Virus record (IMG/VR): IMGVR_UViG_3300034166_001133
Span: 1-45,647 of that record
From: a virus
Direction: 5' to 3' (one strand)
DNA: 45,647 nt
Every line of letters starts with the position of its first letter. Positions within the stretch are counted from its first letter, which is position 1. The notes below the pieces were generated by a model. That model did no database searches and had not been told where the DNA came from. It saw only the letters and a list, made by a program, of their open reading frames with translations. The position numbers and the translations under genes were made by a program. Below, piece after piece: positions 1 to 45,647 of this stretch.

Positions 1-136
1 CCCCGACGCCGTCGACTACGCACGCCGCCGCATCATCGAGATCAAGTTCACCGGGTACGCCAAGCCCGCTCCGTACCACCTTGCACAGCTCAACTGGTAC
101 CAGTACCAGATGTCGCTGCAGACCGGTGGCGCAGAG
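1..136. repeat. Terminal direct repeat, left copy (circular overlap)
   Basis: Bases 1-136 match 45512-45647 except at position 10 (C here, G at 45521), a silent change in an Ala codon; 126 bases from 11 to 136 are identical. The repeat lies inside a gene that continues in frame across the join, so it is best read as an assembly overlap of a circular or circularly permuted molecule, not as a biological terminal repeat. Confidence 0.93.
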
Positions 137-36183: not shown

Positions 36184-37218
36184 ATGAACGACGCCCTGAC
36201 GTGGCCCGACCCCGCGGACCTTCCGGTCCCGGGGTGCGCTCACTTCGACGAGCGCGGCCCCGACCCCTGCGAGCCCGCATCGGCCTCGCTCCCCTACGTG
36301 GGCAACGCGGTGACCCCGCTCGACGTCGTCGACGACTACGGCTGGATCCAGTGCCCGTGCGCCGACGCTACCGCGTGGCGCCACCCCGCGCACGACTGCC
36401 CGCACTGCCTCGGCTACGGCGTCCTCGTCGCGCTGTCCGACGACGACCTCCAGCCGAAACTATGCGAGAACTGCGCCGGAGAGATCGACGACCGTGGATA
36501 CGTCGACGACACGCTCGGCGACTGCCCCACCTGCCTCGGCACCGGCCACGAGTTCGCGCGTCCCCGCCTCAGTTACGAGGAGTTCCGGGAGTGGGAGCGA
36601 CAGGAAGCGATCCTCTCCTACCAGCGTGCCGCCTACGCGGCGCAGGTCGCGCTCTACCTCCACACCGTCGAGGCCGACGGACTCCTGCCCCCGGCCGACC
36701 TCCCGCCATCCCAAGGCAAGTGGCAGTTGCGCACCATCGTTCTGGAGTCGGAAGAGCGACGCCCCTGCGGCCACTGCAAGGACGGCCTCGCCCGGGTCAA
36801 CGGCGCCCTCCAGCGCTGCACCACCTGCAAAGCCACCGGCTCCCTGCCAGTCGCCACAGGGACGTGGCTCTGCGAAGTCGACGTCAACTCCGCGTACTAC
36901 GAGCACGACCGCGACGGAAAACTCCACTCCGAGCCTGCCCTCGACCACTGGCGCGCCGCCCCCGGCTGGACTCTGCGCTTCGGCAAGCACTCCCCGCGGT
37001 ACCTGCCGACCGAGCGCTACGTACCGTTCCATCGCAACGACGCAGTCCGCGTCCGCCCGCGTCGCCCGCACACCATCGCGGGCGTGCCCACCGCCGTGCC
37101 TGCTCGCGCTAACCGCACCAGCGACGGCGTCGTCCACCCCGTCGAGCGCTGGCGCGACGACGAGTACGAGTACTACGCGAGCGGCGACTCCCTACTCCGT
37201 GCCCTGACCGCCCTGTAA
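36184..37218 (+). CDS. DnaJ-type cysteine-rich (CxxCxGxG) protein without J domain
   Basis: This 344-residue protein contains CxxC motifs in DnaJ-zinc-finger style: CPCADATA, CPHCLGYG, CENCAGEI, CPTCLGTG, then CGHCKDGLA and CTTCKATG about 80 residues later. No J-domain HPD is present in a proper context. The C-terminal 130 residues are acidic/aromatic (EVDVNSAYYEHDRDGKLHS) and may be a separate domain. DnaJ zinc domains bind unfolded protein; such phage proteins may be chaperone-like or simply zinc-structured nucleic-acid binders. ATG 36184 lies just after the previous stop. Confidence 0.68.
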   Translation: MNDALTWPDPADLPVPGCAHFDERGPDPCEPASASLPYVGNAVTPLDVVDDYGWIQCPCADATAWRHPAHDCPHCLGYGVLVALSDDDLQPKLCENCAGEIDDRGYVDDTLGDCPTCLGTGHEFARPRLSYEEFREWERQEAILSYQRAAYAAQVALYLHTVEADGLLPPADLPPSQGKWQLRTIVLESEERRPCGHCKDGLARVNGALQRCTTCKATGSLPVATGTWLCEVDVNSAYYEHDRDGKLHSEPALDHWRAAPGWTLRFGKHSPRYLPTERYVPFHRNDAVRVRPRRPHTIAGVPTAVPARANRTSDGVVHPVERWRDDEYEYYASGDSLLRALTAL

Positions 37219-37310
37219 TACAGCGACCACGCATCTCAGCAGCCAGCATCCCCGCTCGTTGAGCGGTAAACCCAACACCGAGGCTTAACGGCCAGACAAG
37301 GACGTGCACA

Positions 37311-37679
37311 GTGTCGGACTTCGACGACAACGACTGGGTCCACCCCGACGTTCTGCCCGACTGGTCCGACATCCACGACAACGTGCTGTCGGAAGCCCGT
37401 CGCACCGCAGCGTCAATCTACGACCGCACCACACCACCCCACGAGCTCGTCCACCCCGACGGCCCAAAGGGGCTTAAGGTCGGAGGCGAGCACATCGGCG
37501 CCGCCGACTTCATGCGTAAAGTCGGATTCGACGCGCGCTTCATCGTCATGACCACCACGTGGCTTGACGAGTACCGAAGCACCGTCGAGCGGCTAGTTCA
37601 CGTGTACATCGCGGAAGTCGTGTCTTCACTCGAAGCCCTGCGCTCCGCCGAAAACGAGGAGATCACCTACGATGGCTGA
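37311..37679 (+). CDS. Hypothetical acidic protein upstream of SSB
   Basis: The 122-residue product starts at GTG 37311 with AAGGACG upstream. It is acidic, with helical segments (DIHDNVLSEARRTAASIYD, VERLVHVYIAEVVSSLEAL). It overlaps the SSB start by 8 bases and is probably co-translated with it. No family is recognised. Confidence 0.62.
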   Translation: MSDFDDNDWVHPDVLPDWSDIHDNVLSEARRTAASIYDRTTPPHELVHPDGPKGLKVGGEHIGAADFMRKVGFDARFIVMTTTWLDEYRSTVERLVHVYIAEVVSSLEALRSAENEEITYDG

Positions 37680-38088
37680 CCTCAACCGAGTTTCCATTAC
37701 CGCCCGCGTCACGATGGAGCCCGAGCTCCGCGAGACCCGCGCGGGTACCCCGCTTGTCAACCTCCGCGTGTGCGTCAACGACGCCATCAAGAAGGACGAC
37801 GGCTCGTGGGACCAGAAGCCGAACTACATCAACGTCACCAAGTTCGGCCCCGACGCCCCCAACATCGCGCGCTCCGTCACCGTCGGCTCCCCGCTGGCAA
37901 TCGACGGGCGCCTCTCGTGGCGTGAGTGGACGACCGACGCTGGCGTCAAGGGTCAGGCCCTCGACGTCGTCGCCGACAACGTCCACTTCATCGACACCAA
38001 GGAGCAGGCCGAGGCCCGCCGCTCCGGCCGCGGTCACACAGCCACGTCGCACGTCGAGTCGGACACGCGCGACGAAGTGCCTTTCTAG
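37672..38088 (+). CDS. ssb: Single-stranded DNA-binding protein
   Basis: The 138-residue protein has an OB-fold SSB pattern: NRVSITARVTMEPELRETRAG, then TPLVNLRVCVND, YINVTKFGPDA and a GSPLAIDGRLSWREWTT strand, ending in an acidic tip DEVPF like the bacterial SSB tail (DDxPF) that recruits partner proteins. It coats single-stranded DNA during replication and recombination. The conserved tip suggests it can recruit host SSB-interacting proteins, which fits the absence of a phage polymerase. Confidence 0.9.
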   Translation: MADLNRVSITARVTMEPELRETRAGTPLVNLRVCVNDAIKKDDGSWDQKPNYINVTKFGPDAPNIARSVTVGSPLAIDGRLSWREWTTDAGVKGQALDVVADNVHFIDTKEQAEARRSGRGHTATSHVESDTRDEVPF

Positions 38089-39218: not shown

Positions 39219-39914
39219 GTGAGCATCACCATCGACCAGTGGGACCTCGCCGAGAAGTGCATCGGCAACATGCGACGCGTTCTCCTCTACGGCCCTCCCG
39301 GCACTGGCAAGACCTACTCCGCCATGCACGCCAACCGCACCTTCGAAACCCCGCTCTACACCAACACCCTCACAGAAGAGACCCCTGCGTCCGAGCTTCG
39401 CGGCCACTTCGTCATGAACGACGGCTCGTACAGCTGGATGCACGGCCCTGCTATCCGTAGCTGGCTCGACGGTGCCCGGTACGTCCTCAACGAGCTGGAC
39501 CGCGCAAGCGGCGACTGCCACTCGTTCTGCTACGCCGTGCTCGACGACCTCGCGTCCGCACAGCTCACCCTGCCCACCGGCGAGACCGTCAAGCCCGCCG
39601 ACAACACCACCTTCGTCGTCACGATGAACGGCACCGAGTCCGACCTGCCTGAGGCCCTGATCGACCGTATGGACGGCATCATCAAGATCACGCGTCCCCA
39701 CCCAGCCGCGATCGCCGCACTGCCCGACGACCTTCAGGTGATCGCCACTGAGGCCACGTCCGCCGACGACTCGAACGTCCGCACCAGTATCCGCAAGTGG
39801 TTCGCCTTCGCCGAGGCACGCAACAACATGGACGTCGTTCACGCTTGCGTCGCCGTCTTCGGCGAGCGCGCGCAGGACATCATCACCGCCTACGAGCTCA
39901 AGGCACGCCTCTAA
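39219..39914 (+). CDS. MoxR-type AAA+ ATPase
   Basis: This 231-residue ATPase has Walker A GPPGTGKT (25-32), Walker B VLNELDRAS (E92, D94), a sensor 1-like FVVTMNGTE and LPEALIDRMDGIIKI, which matches the MoxR/CobS/RavA-type sensor 2 approach with its arginine. It is short, close to a bare AAA+ module. MoxR-type ATPases form hexamers and work with VWA-domain partners to remodel or activate target proteins. The next gene is such a partner and their stop and start share a base, so they are surely co-translated. GTG start at 39219. Confidence 0.85.
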   Translation: MSITIDQWDLAEKCIGNMRRVLLYGPPGTGKTYSAMHANRTFETPLYTNTLTEETPASELRGHFVMNDGSYSWMHGPAIRSWLDGARYVLNELDRASGDCHSFCYAVLDDLASAQLTLPTGETVKPADNTTFVVTMNGTESDLPEALIDRMDGIIKITRPHPAAIAALPDDLQVIATEATSADDSNVRTSIRKWFAFAEARNNMDVVHACVAVFGERAQDIITAYELKARL

Positions 39915-41263
39915 TGGGATTCAGCGCTCTTCCCAACTCGTTTTCCACGGGCGAGCGCAACTGGACCGCAGCCCGTGGCAACGAATCGGCCGACTTCACC
40001 ACCCGCACGGTCCACGCACCGACCGACCTGTCACCACGCAGCACATACGCCCGTACTCACGCCAACGCAACGGTCGCGATCGGCCACGACACCCTTGCGG
40101 AGTTCTCCCGAGAAGCCGACATCCCATACGACGTCTGCACCGCGACCGACTACGGCCGCATCTCAAGCGCGTTGCAGCAGACATACGCTGCCGCCGAGGA
40201 CGGGGTCTGGGACACCTACGAGGAGGAATACGACGACTCCACGACCATACCCCACTACAAGGCTCTCGCCCTCGACCCCGGCCGCCGCCTCCCCGACGGA
40301 GCCATCGAGTTCTACGAGTCCACCGACGACATCCTCGCCGCCTACGCCATCGCCGCAAAGTCCTGCATCGGCGGACCCTCCGACGACTGGGTGACCTTCA
40401 ACACCGCTCTCAGCAAGCGCATCCCCGACGACTCTCCCGACGCAAAGCGACGCAACCTCTTTCGCACCGCAGTGCAACAGGCCGTCCGCGCAGCTGCGTC
40501 AGCCATCGTTGGCGACTACGACGAGCACCCCACCCACGAGTCACTTTCCGACGTTAAGGAGCCGGAAACCACGGAACGCGCCGCCACTGCGGCGTGGTAC
40601 TTCCTTCAGCAATACCTCAACCGCGACGACGACGCAGGCGAGCTTTACCCGCGCGACGAGAGACTCGCCGACGACTCATGGGACGACTGCGACGAATCTG
40701 AGTGGTGCAACATGCACTTCAGGTACCCGACGCTCGTCCTCCCGCAGTCTCCCAAGCTTCGCCGACGCGCGTGGCGTATGTCGGACGAAGGGGCTCTGAT
40801 CCGTTCACCACACCGCATGTGCTCCGACGGCCGCGTATTCGGCTCAGTACGCCGCAAGGCCGACTCCGGCAGCGTGATCATCGACACGTCCGGCTCGATG
40901 CACCTCAGCTCCGACGACATCGACGAGATCATGACCGCACTTCCCGGCGTCACCGTCGCAACGTACTGCTCCGACGGTGACCACGACGGAGAGCTCCGCA
41001 TCGTGGCACGCAAGGGCCGCCGCGCAGGGAAAGACGACCTTACCGACCGCAACTGGGGCGGCAACGGCGTTGACGGCCCCGCACTGCGCTGGCTCGCAAA
41101 GCAGCCCGCACCGCGCTACTGGGTGTGCGACGGCGTCGTCACCGGCATCTACGACAACACGAGCCCCAACCTACGCACGGAGTGTGACCGCTTGACACGC
41201 AGATACGACATCACCCGCATTCACAGCATCCACCACCTTCGCGACATGTTCGGCAACAGCTGA
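39914..41263 (+). CDS. VWA-domain protein, partner of the MoxR-type ATPase
   Basis: The 449-residue protein ends in a VWA domain (about 318-449). DTSGS (D324, S326, S328) is the MIDAS metal-binding motif, with GGNGVDGPALRWL as the probable third MIDAS element and YWVCDGVVTG as the aspartate strand. The N-terminal 300 residues are acidic and helical, with no family recognised; they may bind the target or the ATPase. Known parallels are RavA-ViaA, CbbQ-CbbO and CobS-CobT. It shares a base with the ATPase stop codon. The client protein in this phage is unknown. Confidence 0.82.
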   Translation: MGFSALPNSFSTGERNWTAARGNESADFTTRTVHAPTDLSPRSTYARTHANATVAIGHDTLAEFSREADIPYDVCTATDYGRISSALQQTYAAAEDGVWDTYEEEYDDSTTIPHYKALALDPGRRLPDGAIEFYESTDDILAAYAIAAKSCIGGPSDDWVTFNTALSKRIPDDSPDAKRRNLFRTAVQQAVRAAASAIVGDYDEHPTHESLSDVKEPETTERAATAAWYFLQQYLNRDDDAGELYPRDERLADDSWDDCDESEWCNMHFRYPTLVLPQSPKLRRRAWRMSDEGALIRSPHRMCSDGRVFGSVRRKADSGSVIIDTSGSMHLSSDDIDEIMTALPGVTVATYCSDGDHDGELRIVARKGRRAGKDDLTDRNWGGNGVDGPALRWLAKQPAPRYWVCDGVVTGIYDNTSPNLRTECDRLTRRYDITRIHSIHHLRDMFGNS

Positions 41264-42350: not shown

Positions 42351-42745
42351 GATACCCGTCCCGCTCACACCGCGCCAAGGTCGCCGTGACCGTCGAGATC
42401 CTCGTCCCCGAGACCGACAACCTTCACGTCTGCGAGAGGATCTCCGGCGACTGGACCCGCAACCACTACGCGCGCCTTGCGCTTAACCGCGCCCTCGGGC
42501 TGACCGCGCACGACAGCGGCCCGTCCCTCGACCAGTACGAGGTAGTCCGCGCTTACCGGTCGAAGCACATCGAAGCCGGACTCCCGCTTGCAGGCGTGAC
42601 GCTAACGCCTGAAACGACCCACATCGCCACCACTTCCGGTACCGAGGATCACGACGCTGTTTCAGCAGAGTCCACCGATCCCTCAGACTCCGACTCCGAC
42701 GATGCCGTGGTCGACATCGGACGCTGGGACTTCGTCGTGGCCTGA
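42347..42745 (+). CDS. Hypothetical protein with acidic Ser-rich tail
   Basis: The 132-residue product starts at ATG 42347 (ATGA overlap). The N-terminal 85 residues look folded (VAVTVEILVPETDNLHVCER); the tail is acidic and Ser-rich (STDPSDSDSDDAVVD). Its last 97 bases are also the antisense coding end of the HNH gene. No family is recognised. Confidence 0.6.
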   Translation: MRYPSRSHRAKVAVTVEILVPETDNLHVCERISGDWTRNHYARLALNRALGLTAHDSGPSLDQYEVVRAYRSKHIEAGLPLAGVTLTPETTHIATTSGTEDHDAVSAESTDPSDSDSDDAVVDIGRWDFVVA

Positions 42746-43176
42746 CGGCCCAAGTCCACTGGCATCTCGCCAGCGATACGACGGGCGCGGTTTCGTTGGG
42801 CCACAAGCCCTTCGAGCCGCGCCCGCGTGTCGGCGAGGAGCTCCTCGTCAAACTTGCTGCGGTTGCAGTCTCGACACGCCGTAACCAGATTCCCCGCCGT
42901 GTCAGCCCCACCAGCCGAGTGCGCCACAATGTGATCGGCCTCCAGCTTAACCCCGTCCTCAACCGACGATTTTCCGCAGTACACGCAGCGGAACTCATCA
43001 CGCGCAAAAATTACCCACTCCTTGCGCCTGCGCCTCTTCCCACGGCGCGTGTAATCCCGCCGCTGCGCCGGTCGGTCAGACAAGGACGCGCGCGCTGGTG
43101 TTCCGCCGCCCGCGTCAGACGACGCCGCGCACAACATTGCGCGTTCTTGCACGCGATTGCACACCGAATTGTGCAT
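42649..43176 (-). CDS. HNH endonuclease
   Basis: The 175-residue protein, on the minus strand inside the plus arm, has an HNH core: C64-x2-C67, LEADHIVAHS (D81, H82), N96 in GNLVTAC, then C101-x2-C104 and NRSK. A basic patch (RRGKRRRRK, about 45-53) precedes it. HNH enzymes nick or cut DNA as homing, packaging-associated or defence nucleases. ATG 43176 is set by GGAGGA seven bases upstream; the frame is open further to 43230. An AT-rich promoter-like stretch with TATAAA twice lies upstream. Lone opposite orientation suggests a mobile acquisition. Confidence 0.85.
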   Translation of the reverse strand: MHNSVCNRVQERAMLCAASSDAGGGTPARASLSDRPAQRRDYTRRGKRRRRKEWVIFARDEFRCVYCGKSSVEDGVKLEADHIVAHSAGGADTAGNLVTACRDCNRSKFDEELLADTRARLEGLVAQRNRARRIAGEMPVDLGRQATTKSQRPMSTTASSESESEGSVDSAETAS

Positions 43177-43374
43177 CCAAACTCCTCCGTTTACCCTGCT
43201 ATTTATACCTTTTATACCAACGTTGTGCATATTGCACTACCGACCCTACCCCTATTCGCCAAACCTATCCGTGAGGAGAGGCCCTGCACAATTTGCACAA
43301 CTTGCACAACGCGCGGAATTGCCCTGCAAAGCCCACACTTTCCAAGTGCACCCCCCCGCACAACGGGTGCACAA
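43128..43374. repeat. TGCACAA motif cluster with AT-rich stretch (origin or operator candidate)
   Basis: Six exact TGCACAA motifs occur on either strand (43169-43175 and 43223-43229 reversed; 43285-43291, 43294-43300, 43303-43309, 43368-43374), plus CGCACAA at 43128-43134 and 43357-43363 and TTGCAC at 43147, 43157 and 43232. Three are in tandem at exactly 9-bp steps. The stretch 43198-43240 is notably AT-rich for this genome. The region spans the HNH 5' end and the divergent gap to 43421. Confidence 0.7.
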
Positions 43375-45221: not shown

Positions 45222-45647
45222 ATGACGACAACCCTGCTCCCGGTACTGGACGACCCACTGGCTAGCACCAAGGAATGGACCCCGCCGACCGGGGAGCTTC
45301 GCCCCTCGATGCTGGGCGCGTGCGCCCGGTACTCGTGGAACGAAGTACGCATCCCGGCCGAAGAGAGAGTCGTTGGCCCCATTGGCCGCGAGGTCATGTT
45401 CTACTCCGGCCACGCTGCCGAAGAAAAGTTCATCGAGCTTGCCTACACCATCAACGGCGAGCTTCTGCTGCACGGTCAGGAGCTGTACAACGGCTACGGC
45501 GGCGTGTGCCACCCCGACGCGGTCGACTACGCACGCCGCCGCATCATCGAGATCAAGTTCACCGGGTACGCCAAGCCCGCTCCGTACCACCTTGCACAGC
45601 TCAACTGGTACCAGTACCAGATGTCGCTGCAGACCGGTGGCGCAGAG
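45222..45647 (+). CDS. Cas4/RecB-like Fe-S exonuclease, N-terminal part (continues at position 2)
   Basis: ATG 45222 begins the 233-residue nuclease whose C-terminal part occupies positions 2-412. This segment holds C34 in SMLGACARYSW (candidate first Fe-S cysteine), SGHAAEEKF as motif I-like helix, and GGVCHPDAVDY with the PD motif, then EIK. The last 136 bases duplicate the window start. GAAGGT at 45205-45210 is a possible ribosome-binding site. Confidence 0.87.
   Translation, partial: MTTTLLPVLDDPLASTKEWTPPTGELRPSMLGACARYSWNEVRIPAEERVVGPIGREVMFYSGHAAEEKFIELAYTINGELLLHGQELYNGYGGVCHPDAVDYARRRIIEIKFTGYAKPAPYHLAQLNWYQYQMSLQTGGAE
45512..45647. repeat. Terminal direct repeat, right copy
   Basis: This stretch is the right copy of bases 1-136 (one mismatch at 45521). 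It marks the join of a circular map of about 45511 bases. Confidence 0.93.

Follow-up and report, generated by a model that had tools for sequence, protein, structure and literature searches.

A phage MoxR-type AAA+ ATPase paired with a VWA adaptor resembles NorQ-NorD and carries a likely zincin-like domain that has probably lost its active site

Two overlapping genes lie on the plus strand of a 45,647-base virus record (the window, that is, the whole stretch of DNA analysed), and we asked what kind of machine their products form and on which protein it might act. The first-pass annotation had described a bare AAA+ protein and a 449-aa protein whose reading frames share one base, and this description was borne out, since the ATG of the second gene shares one base with the TAA stop of the first.

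39219-39914, plus strand: AAA+ gene, GTG start, 231 aa, a bare MoxR-type AAA+ module
39914-41263, plus strand: VWA adaptor gene, ATG start, 449 aa

The ATPase matched Pfam AAA_5 (2.4e-16), and a profile search matched the adaptor, over its C-terminal half and in register, to PHROG 33218 (1.3e-26). These two matches, together with a gene order and strand that were kept in all 66 loci where both genes were visible, the ATPase always lying upstream, indicate that the pair is not a product of chance. The two ends of the window (1-136 and 45512-45647) agree with one mismatch, the matching ends thus indicating that the genome is probably complete and circularly assembled; end-matching records of this kind may be classed as linear despite their probable completeness. 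Terminase and major capsid protein had only distant relatives among sequenced phages. Those of the capsid protein came, in the phage collection, solely from Arthrobacter, Microbacterium and Cellulosimicrobium phages, which makes an actinobacterial host likely and agrees with the actinophage origin assumed in the first-pass annotation.

We then looked for relatives of the pair. A peptide-pattern search of IMG/VR returned no close relatives of either protein, and none of the adaptor were found in GTDB genomes. Likewise, tblastn of the adaptor against INPHARED (50,697 phage records) gave no match, its C-terminal half gave only chance-level rows at E values up to 10, and a search of seven phage records with PHROG 33218 was empty. 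The Fizzles and Viktualia rows were inspected and dropped as chance-level tblastn matches. The family was reached solely by searching IMG/VR with a degenerate DNA pattern that encodes the WV..DG..VTG motif; this gave 116 stretches, 83 of them encoding adaptor relatives. ATPase and adaptor genes were spaced by no more than 30 bases in 64 of the 66 loci with both genes visible, while 16 of the remaining 17 loci, in which no ATPase was visible, were cut off at the 5' end. The last of these (L032:232-2743) has a tandem pair of adaptor genes at the start of a 115-kb contig, with the contig end 5' of them. One of the two loci with a gap of more than 30 bases is the nearest non-sister relative, L124, where a 135-aa frame lies between ATPase and adaptor (L124:2108-2515). 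PHROG 33218, for which no function is listed, was matched by the window adaptor and by all 43 non-redundant adaptors. A WhiB gene cluster was present in 27 loci (one member checked by Pfam), and on the basis of these WhiB genes many of the family loci are probable actinophages.

We next examined whether the ATPase has the parts of a working motor.

39291-39314, plus strand: Walker A GPPGTGKT, residues 25-32 (G25, G28, G30 and K31 invariant in 35 relatives)
39396-39449, plus strand: segment ELRGHFVMNDGSYSWMHGP, presumed by position to correspond to the helix-2 insert of NorQ (35 relatives all have G62 and G76)
39480-39500, plus strand: Walker B YVLNELD, with Glu92 kept and Asp replaced by Asn (sequence and alignment)

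In NorQ, the helix-2 insert (H2i) is the loop that holds the NorD finger (PMC13036017). The phage AAA+ module is complete, as Walker A, catalytic Glu, sensor 1, arginine finger and sensor 2 were all found. Across the 35 aligned ATPase relatives, there is little or no variation in Walker A and the catalytic Glu, and none at N137 (sensor 1), R150 (arginine finger) and R192 (sensor-2 arginine). Both Walker motifs had initially been called intact; this held for Walker A and for catalytic Glu92 but not for the Walker B aspartate, and an asparagine also occupies this position in the sister phage L129 and in L124, L023 and L083. With this replacement, the ATPase activity of the phage protein is not certain.

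When the ATPase profile was compared to the PDB, midasin came first, scoring higher over several stretches, with several AAA+ modules matched, and the best matches with a single AAA+ module were NorQ (2.2e-15) and CbbQ (1.3e-13), with CobS at 9e-6. This placement comes from PDB profile scores and suggests that the phage ATPase is nearer in sequence to NorQ/CbbQ than to CobS. Three parallels had been named at the outset, and by sequence they rank differently: the CbbQ of CbbQ-CbbO is close, the CobS of CobS-CobT is far and the RavA of RavA-ViaA was absent among the best 60 PDB chains listed. These scores also bear on the possibility that the pair is a cobaltochelatase, that is, a CobS-CobT that would join the host CobN and raise cobalamin output. 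A role of viral cobST in cobalamin output has been proposed for haloarchaeal tailed viruses and cyanophages (PMC8651126), and the phage ATPase does match cobS-labelled genes of cyanophages (PHROG 249, 1.6e-17; tblastn, 6e-9). However, CobS is outscored by NorQ (9e-6 versus 2e-15) and by CbbQ as well, no CobT Pfam family was found for the window adaptor at E values up to 10 or for any of the 43 relatives at 0.01, and no ribonucleotide reductase was seen in the part of the window genes that was scanned. We therefore regard a cobaltochelatase as very improbable.

We then turned to the C-terminal half of the adaptor.

40673-40858, plus strand: putative finger-like extension, residues 254-315, before the VWA core (conserved residues; within the alignment to 9qh6_G)
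40859-41260, plus strand: VWA domain, residues 316-449 (pLDDT mostly >90; structural matches)
40883-40897, plus strand: MIDAS DTSGS, residues 324-328 (D324, S326 and S328 invariant in 43 relatives)

Pfam did not detect a VWA domain in the window adaptor, and the sequence profile of the adaptor gave only chance-level rows against the PDB. We nevertheless assign a VWA domain because the MIDAS residues, the match to PHROG 33218, the family alignment and the fold all point to it, and the C-terminal VWA domain with an intact DxSxS MIDAS motif proposed earlier is thus confirmed. The MIDAS stretch reads IIDTSGSM, and D406 is also invariant in the 43 relatives, as is Asn384, which stands where many VWA domains have the MIDAS threonine. 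An AlphaFold2 model, made with the 43-sequence alignment, had high confidence over residues 316-449. Foldseek with the VWA model returned the NorD VWA domain of the NorQ-NorD complex (9qh6_G) at 3.4e-4, the sole match below 0.001. In the VIA ranking, two NorQ-NorD VWA chains led with Z-scores of 9.9 and 8.9, while other VWA domains reached 7.6 or less; for 9qh6_G (Z 9.9), 153 residues of the model of residues 254-449 were aligned with an rmsd of 3.8. CbbO, CobT and RavA were not among the structural matches listed for the adaptor, which is not evidence of their absence. Together, Pfam AAA_5, the NorQ/CbbQ profile matches and the structural match to the NorD VWA domain support the original view of the phage genes as a MoxR-type AAA+/VWA pair.

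The alignment to 9qh6_G starts at adaptor residue 254, ahead of the VWA core. The region so covered, residues 254-315, has invariant G293, R301 and D305 and nearly invariant W264, R307 and F309 in the family alignment. From this alignment range, rather than from a residue-by-residue correspondence, we infer that residues 254-315 are the counterpart of the NorD finger, which comprises NorD residues 403-448 and enters the ring, the NorD C terminus touching the post-sensor-1 loop (PMC13036017). A structural comparison of the window adaptor to BFVD matched, among others, DUF7192 proteins, and in mycobacteriophage DuncansLeg an AAA-ATPase lies near a DUF7192 protein (L002:2156-4567); DUF7192 may be a degenerate VWA partner.

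The 300 residues at the N terminus of the adaptor had been said to resemble nothing recognisable, a statement that no longer applies to the first approximately 105 of them, which appear zincin-like with the active site lost.

39914-40228, plus strand: likely zincin-like domain, residues 1-105 (AF2 pLDDT of about 80, strands then helices; BlaR1 and PprI matches; HExxH in the family)
40058-40072, plus strand: HANAT, a degenerate zinc motif in place of the HExxH found in relatives (family alignment)
40229-40672, plus strand: linker, residues 106-253 (pLDDT mostly <60, poorly predicted; the fastest-diverging part)

An HExxH motif stands at one aligned place near the N terminus in 25 of the 43 non-redundant relatives, compared to 0.93 sequences expected from shuffles, and it is followed in the family by a helix with a conserved glutamate (EE-RVN). 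At the level of sequence, HExxH with a downstream glutamate is the pattern of a zincin with Glu as the third ligand. Residues 1-106 folded alone gave three strands and three helices with a mean pLDDT of 79.7. When this domain was compared by VIA to 25 chains, the best match was the BlaR1 zinc metalloprotease domain (Z 5.9 over 102 aligned residues), followed by PprI (Z 4.8 over 97); these two Z-scores are below the level that VIA calls safe. BlaR1 and PprI are HExxH proteins. Foldseek with the N-terminal domain alone gave no significant match. The fold alone is insufficient as proof, but since the family HExxH motif and the fold agree, residues 1-105 are likely zincin-like.

In the window adaptor itself the HExxH motif is absent, being replaced by HANAT, and the sister phage L129 has IANLT at this place, suggesting that the N-terminal domain of the window adaptor is probably a pseudo-enzyme whose zincin active site has been lost. 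In a tree built from the finger and VWA columns, the state of the motif changes six times, at least two of these changes falling across well-supported branches. As intact and lost motifs are both found on either side of the deepest supported split, the simplest reading is that catalysis has probably been lost more than once in the adaptor family. With peptidase sites both intact and broken in a single family, it could be tested directly whether cutting or remodelling is the essential function. These data also bear on the idea that the adaptor is an active metalloprotease, with the ring feeding substrates to the zincin domain in the manner of an ATP-dependent protease. The 25 relatives with HExxH and the downstream glutamate would fit an active gluzincin, and a cyanophage partner that has HExxH is annotated as a peptidase, but with HANAT in the window and IANLT in its sister, the zinc ligands and the catalytic glutamate are missing. 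Active proteolysis may thus apply to relatives, and for the window phage we consider it the least probable of the readings weighed here.

We next compared the pair to that of the sister phage L129, which keeps both genes and whose terminase and major capsid protein are 86 and 87% identical, respectively, to those of the window. The ATPase is 79% identical between the two phages and the adaptor only 43%, with 33% identity in the linker and 46 to 50% elsewhere in the adaptor. The ATPase had a dN/dS ratio of about 0.2 and the adaptor one of 0.46, calculated with synonymous sites near saturation, and the ratio stayed below 1 throughout. A conserved motor with a fast-changing adaptor would fit a changing target. 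The same contrast (43 versus 79%) is what would be expected if the pair acted in phage-host or phage-phage conflict, for instance by disarming a host defence complex, and MoxR/VWA pairs are known from bacterial conflict systems (PMC7159879). Nonetheless, the adaptor had no match in PADLOC, where parts of the ATPase matched IetA and TRIP13 only weakly, and the dN/dS values below 1 likewise speak against a role in conflict, which we judge improbable.

We then considered the place of the pair in the genome.

37672-38088, plus strand: SSB gene, 1.1 kb upstream of the pair, early/replication block
1.1-4.0 kb, past the joined ends, plus strand: RuvC-like and primase genes, on the same strand as the pair
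42649-43230, minus strand: HNH endonuclease gene, on the opposite strand, interrupting the early block

Near the start of the early block, positions 36184-37219 encode a protein with several CxxC pairs, possibly zinc binding, for which the frame scanned gave no PHROG match. As the pair is part of the early/replication block and follows the SSB gene at a distance of 1.1 kb, we weakly favour a protein of replication or of the host over a virion protein as the target. This setting is directly relevant to the possibility that the pair is a virion-assembly chaperone, in which the ring would remodel a structural protein of the tail or head. In the window, it is the minus strand that carries the head, tail and terminase genes recognised, while the pair stands in the plus-strand block by the SSB gene, and a similarly built pair of the cyanophage P-HM1 sits among replication and recombination genes (gp44-gp47); the gene place in these two phages mildly favours a role in the replication phase. 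In contrast, in four relatives (L023, L058, L083 and L107) the pair directly precedes the terminase genes, a position that would be in keeping with a role in packaging or in the virion. Such a role has precedents. In Acidianus two-tailed virus (ATV), p618 is part of the virion and binds virion proteins as well as the VWA protein p892 (PMC4124505), and a virion role has also been proposed for jumbo phages with a metallopeptidase-bearing VWA partner (PMC7824862). The adaptor, at 43% identity to its sister, does not track the conserved head proteins (87% for the major capsid protein and 86% for terminase), although tail proteins diverge as fast as the adaptor does. On balance, a virion-assembly chaperone appears unlikely, albeit with a real chance of being correct.

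A remodelling machine, as originally suggested, remains the best inference for the phage pair, and we put the probability that it is an ATP-driven remodelling complex working like NorQ-NorD and CbbQ-CbbO at roughly 0.6. In such a complex, six ATPase subunits would form a ring, the adaptor finger would enter the pore, and the adaptor C terminus would contact the opposite side of the ring. Through rounds of ATP binding, the VWA part would then turn relative to the N-terminal part, so that the linker would be stretched and a protein bound to the adaptor pulled open; for NorQ-NorD, too, the proposed action is a twist by which the linker of NorD is stretched (PMC13036017). The N-terminal domain, presumably descended from a zincin metallopeptidase, would here most likely be the target-binding arm, since its active site is gone in the window phage, while many relatives may still cut with it. 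More tentatively, and with somewhat less than even odds, the NorQ-type ring and its zincin-VWA adaptor may define a large unnamed phage family in which several lineages, including that of the window, made the peptidase a non-cutting target-binding arm and so converted a cutting machine into one that, during replication, solely remodels a protein of the phage or the host.

Finally, we compared the phage pair to known systems. With NorQ-NorD, which acts in iron insertion into cNOR in Paracoccus denitrificans and Jhaorihella thermophila, it shares a small NorQ-type AAA+ module and a partner whose VWA domain is C-terminal and follows a conserved extension, NorD being the best structural match of the VWA half. 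Unlike NorD, the phage adaptor has a likely zincin-like N-terminal domain, and identity between the VWA domains is about 10%. Neither cNOR (nitric oxide reductase) nor rubisco was recognised in the part of the window genes scanned. With the rubisco activase CbbQ-CbbO, the shared feature is the ATPase profile match (1.3e-13); there the ring works with a VWA adaptor, whereas the ring of the phage protein is presumed. RavA differs from the phage ATPase in having C-terminal LARA and triple-helical domains (PMC4124505), the 231-aa phage protein consisting of the AAA+ module only.

Viral pairs of related design fall at various distances from that of the window. In the ATV p618/p892 and halovirus HVTV-1/Hardycor1 pairs, a virus-encoded AAA+ protein likewise stands beside or near a vWA-MIDAS protein, but these are archaeal viruses with much larger proteins, and the ATV pair has been assigned to virion tail development. 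ATSV F518 was rejected as an AAA-VWA relative, its neighbour E355 lacking a MIDAS motif. A two-subunit MoxR chaperonin has been described in Bacillus phage 0305phi8-36 (PMC2147016). In Microbacterium phage Big4, a distantly similar AAA-ATPase directly precedes rIIA-like and rIIB-like genes (L006:5653-10075), and no VWA partner was seen. Closer in architecture are the pairs of MoxR and metallopeptidase-vWA proteins that Iyer and colleagues reported in group 2.2 jumbo phages (PMC7824862); going by the published description, an AAA+ protein there adjoins a protein with an N-terminal metallopeptidase and a C-terminal vWA domain, while in the window the peptidase motif is lost and the genome is only 45.6 kb. 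Also close in architecture are the pairs of the cyanophage P-HM1 and of the actinophages Cantare (Brevibacterium phage, gp55/56) and Hanem (Gordonia phage, gp71/72), in which an AAA+ protein adjoins a partner with an HExxH around residues 55-84, an ED-R motif further downstream and, at the C terminus, a VWA domain with a DxSxS MIDAS. These adaptors are longer (581 to 741 aa) and have kept HExxH intact, the gene order is reversed in P-HM1, and the VWA proteins showed no BLAST-level similarity to the three partners.

The names given to these proteins vary: the Cantare partner is unnamed beside an AAA-ATPase, the Hanem partner is called an AAA ATPase domain protein, and the P-HM1 "peptidase" beside "CobS" (L150:4347-7726) has both HExxH and the VWA MIDAS, so that its annotation is partial. 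Phage MoxR-VWA pairs are thus scattered under the names CobS, peptidase, AAA-ATPase and unknown function, and no experiments on such pairs from tailed phages were found in the literature searched. The architecture of an AAA+ protein with an HExxH-VWA partner is already known from cyanophages, two actinophages and the published jumbo phages. What is new here is the family itself, which unites at least 83 uncultivated phage fragments under one architecture whose mechanism has a solved model in NorQ-NorD. Also new are the relation of this family to NorQ-NorD, the identity that is now probable for the N-terminal domain, and the loss of the active site of that domain in the lineage of the window.
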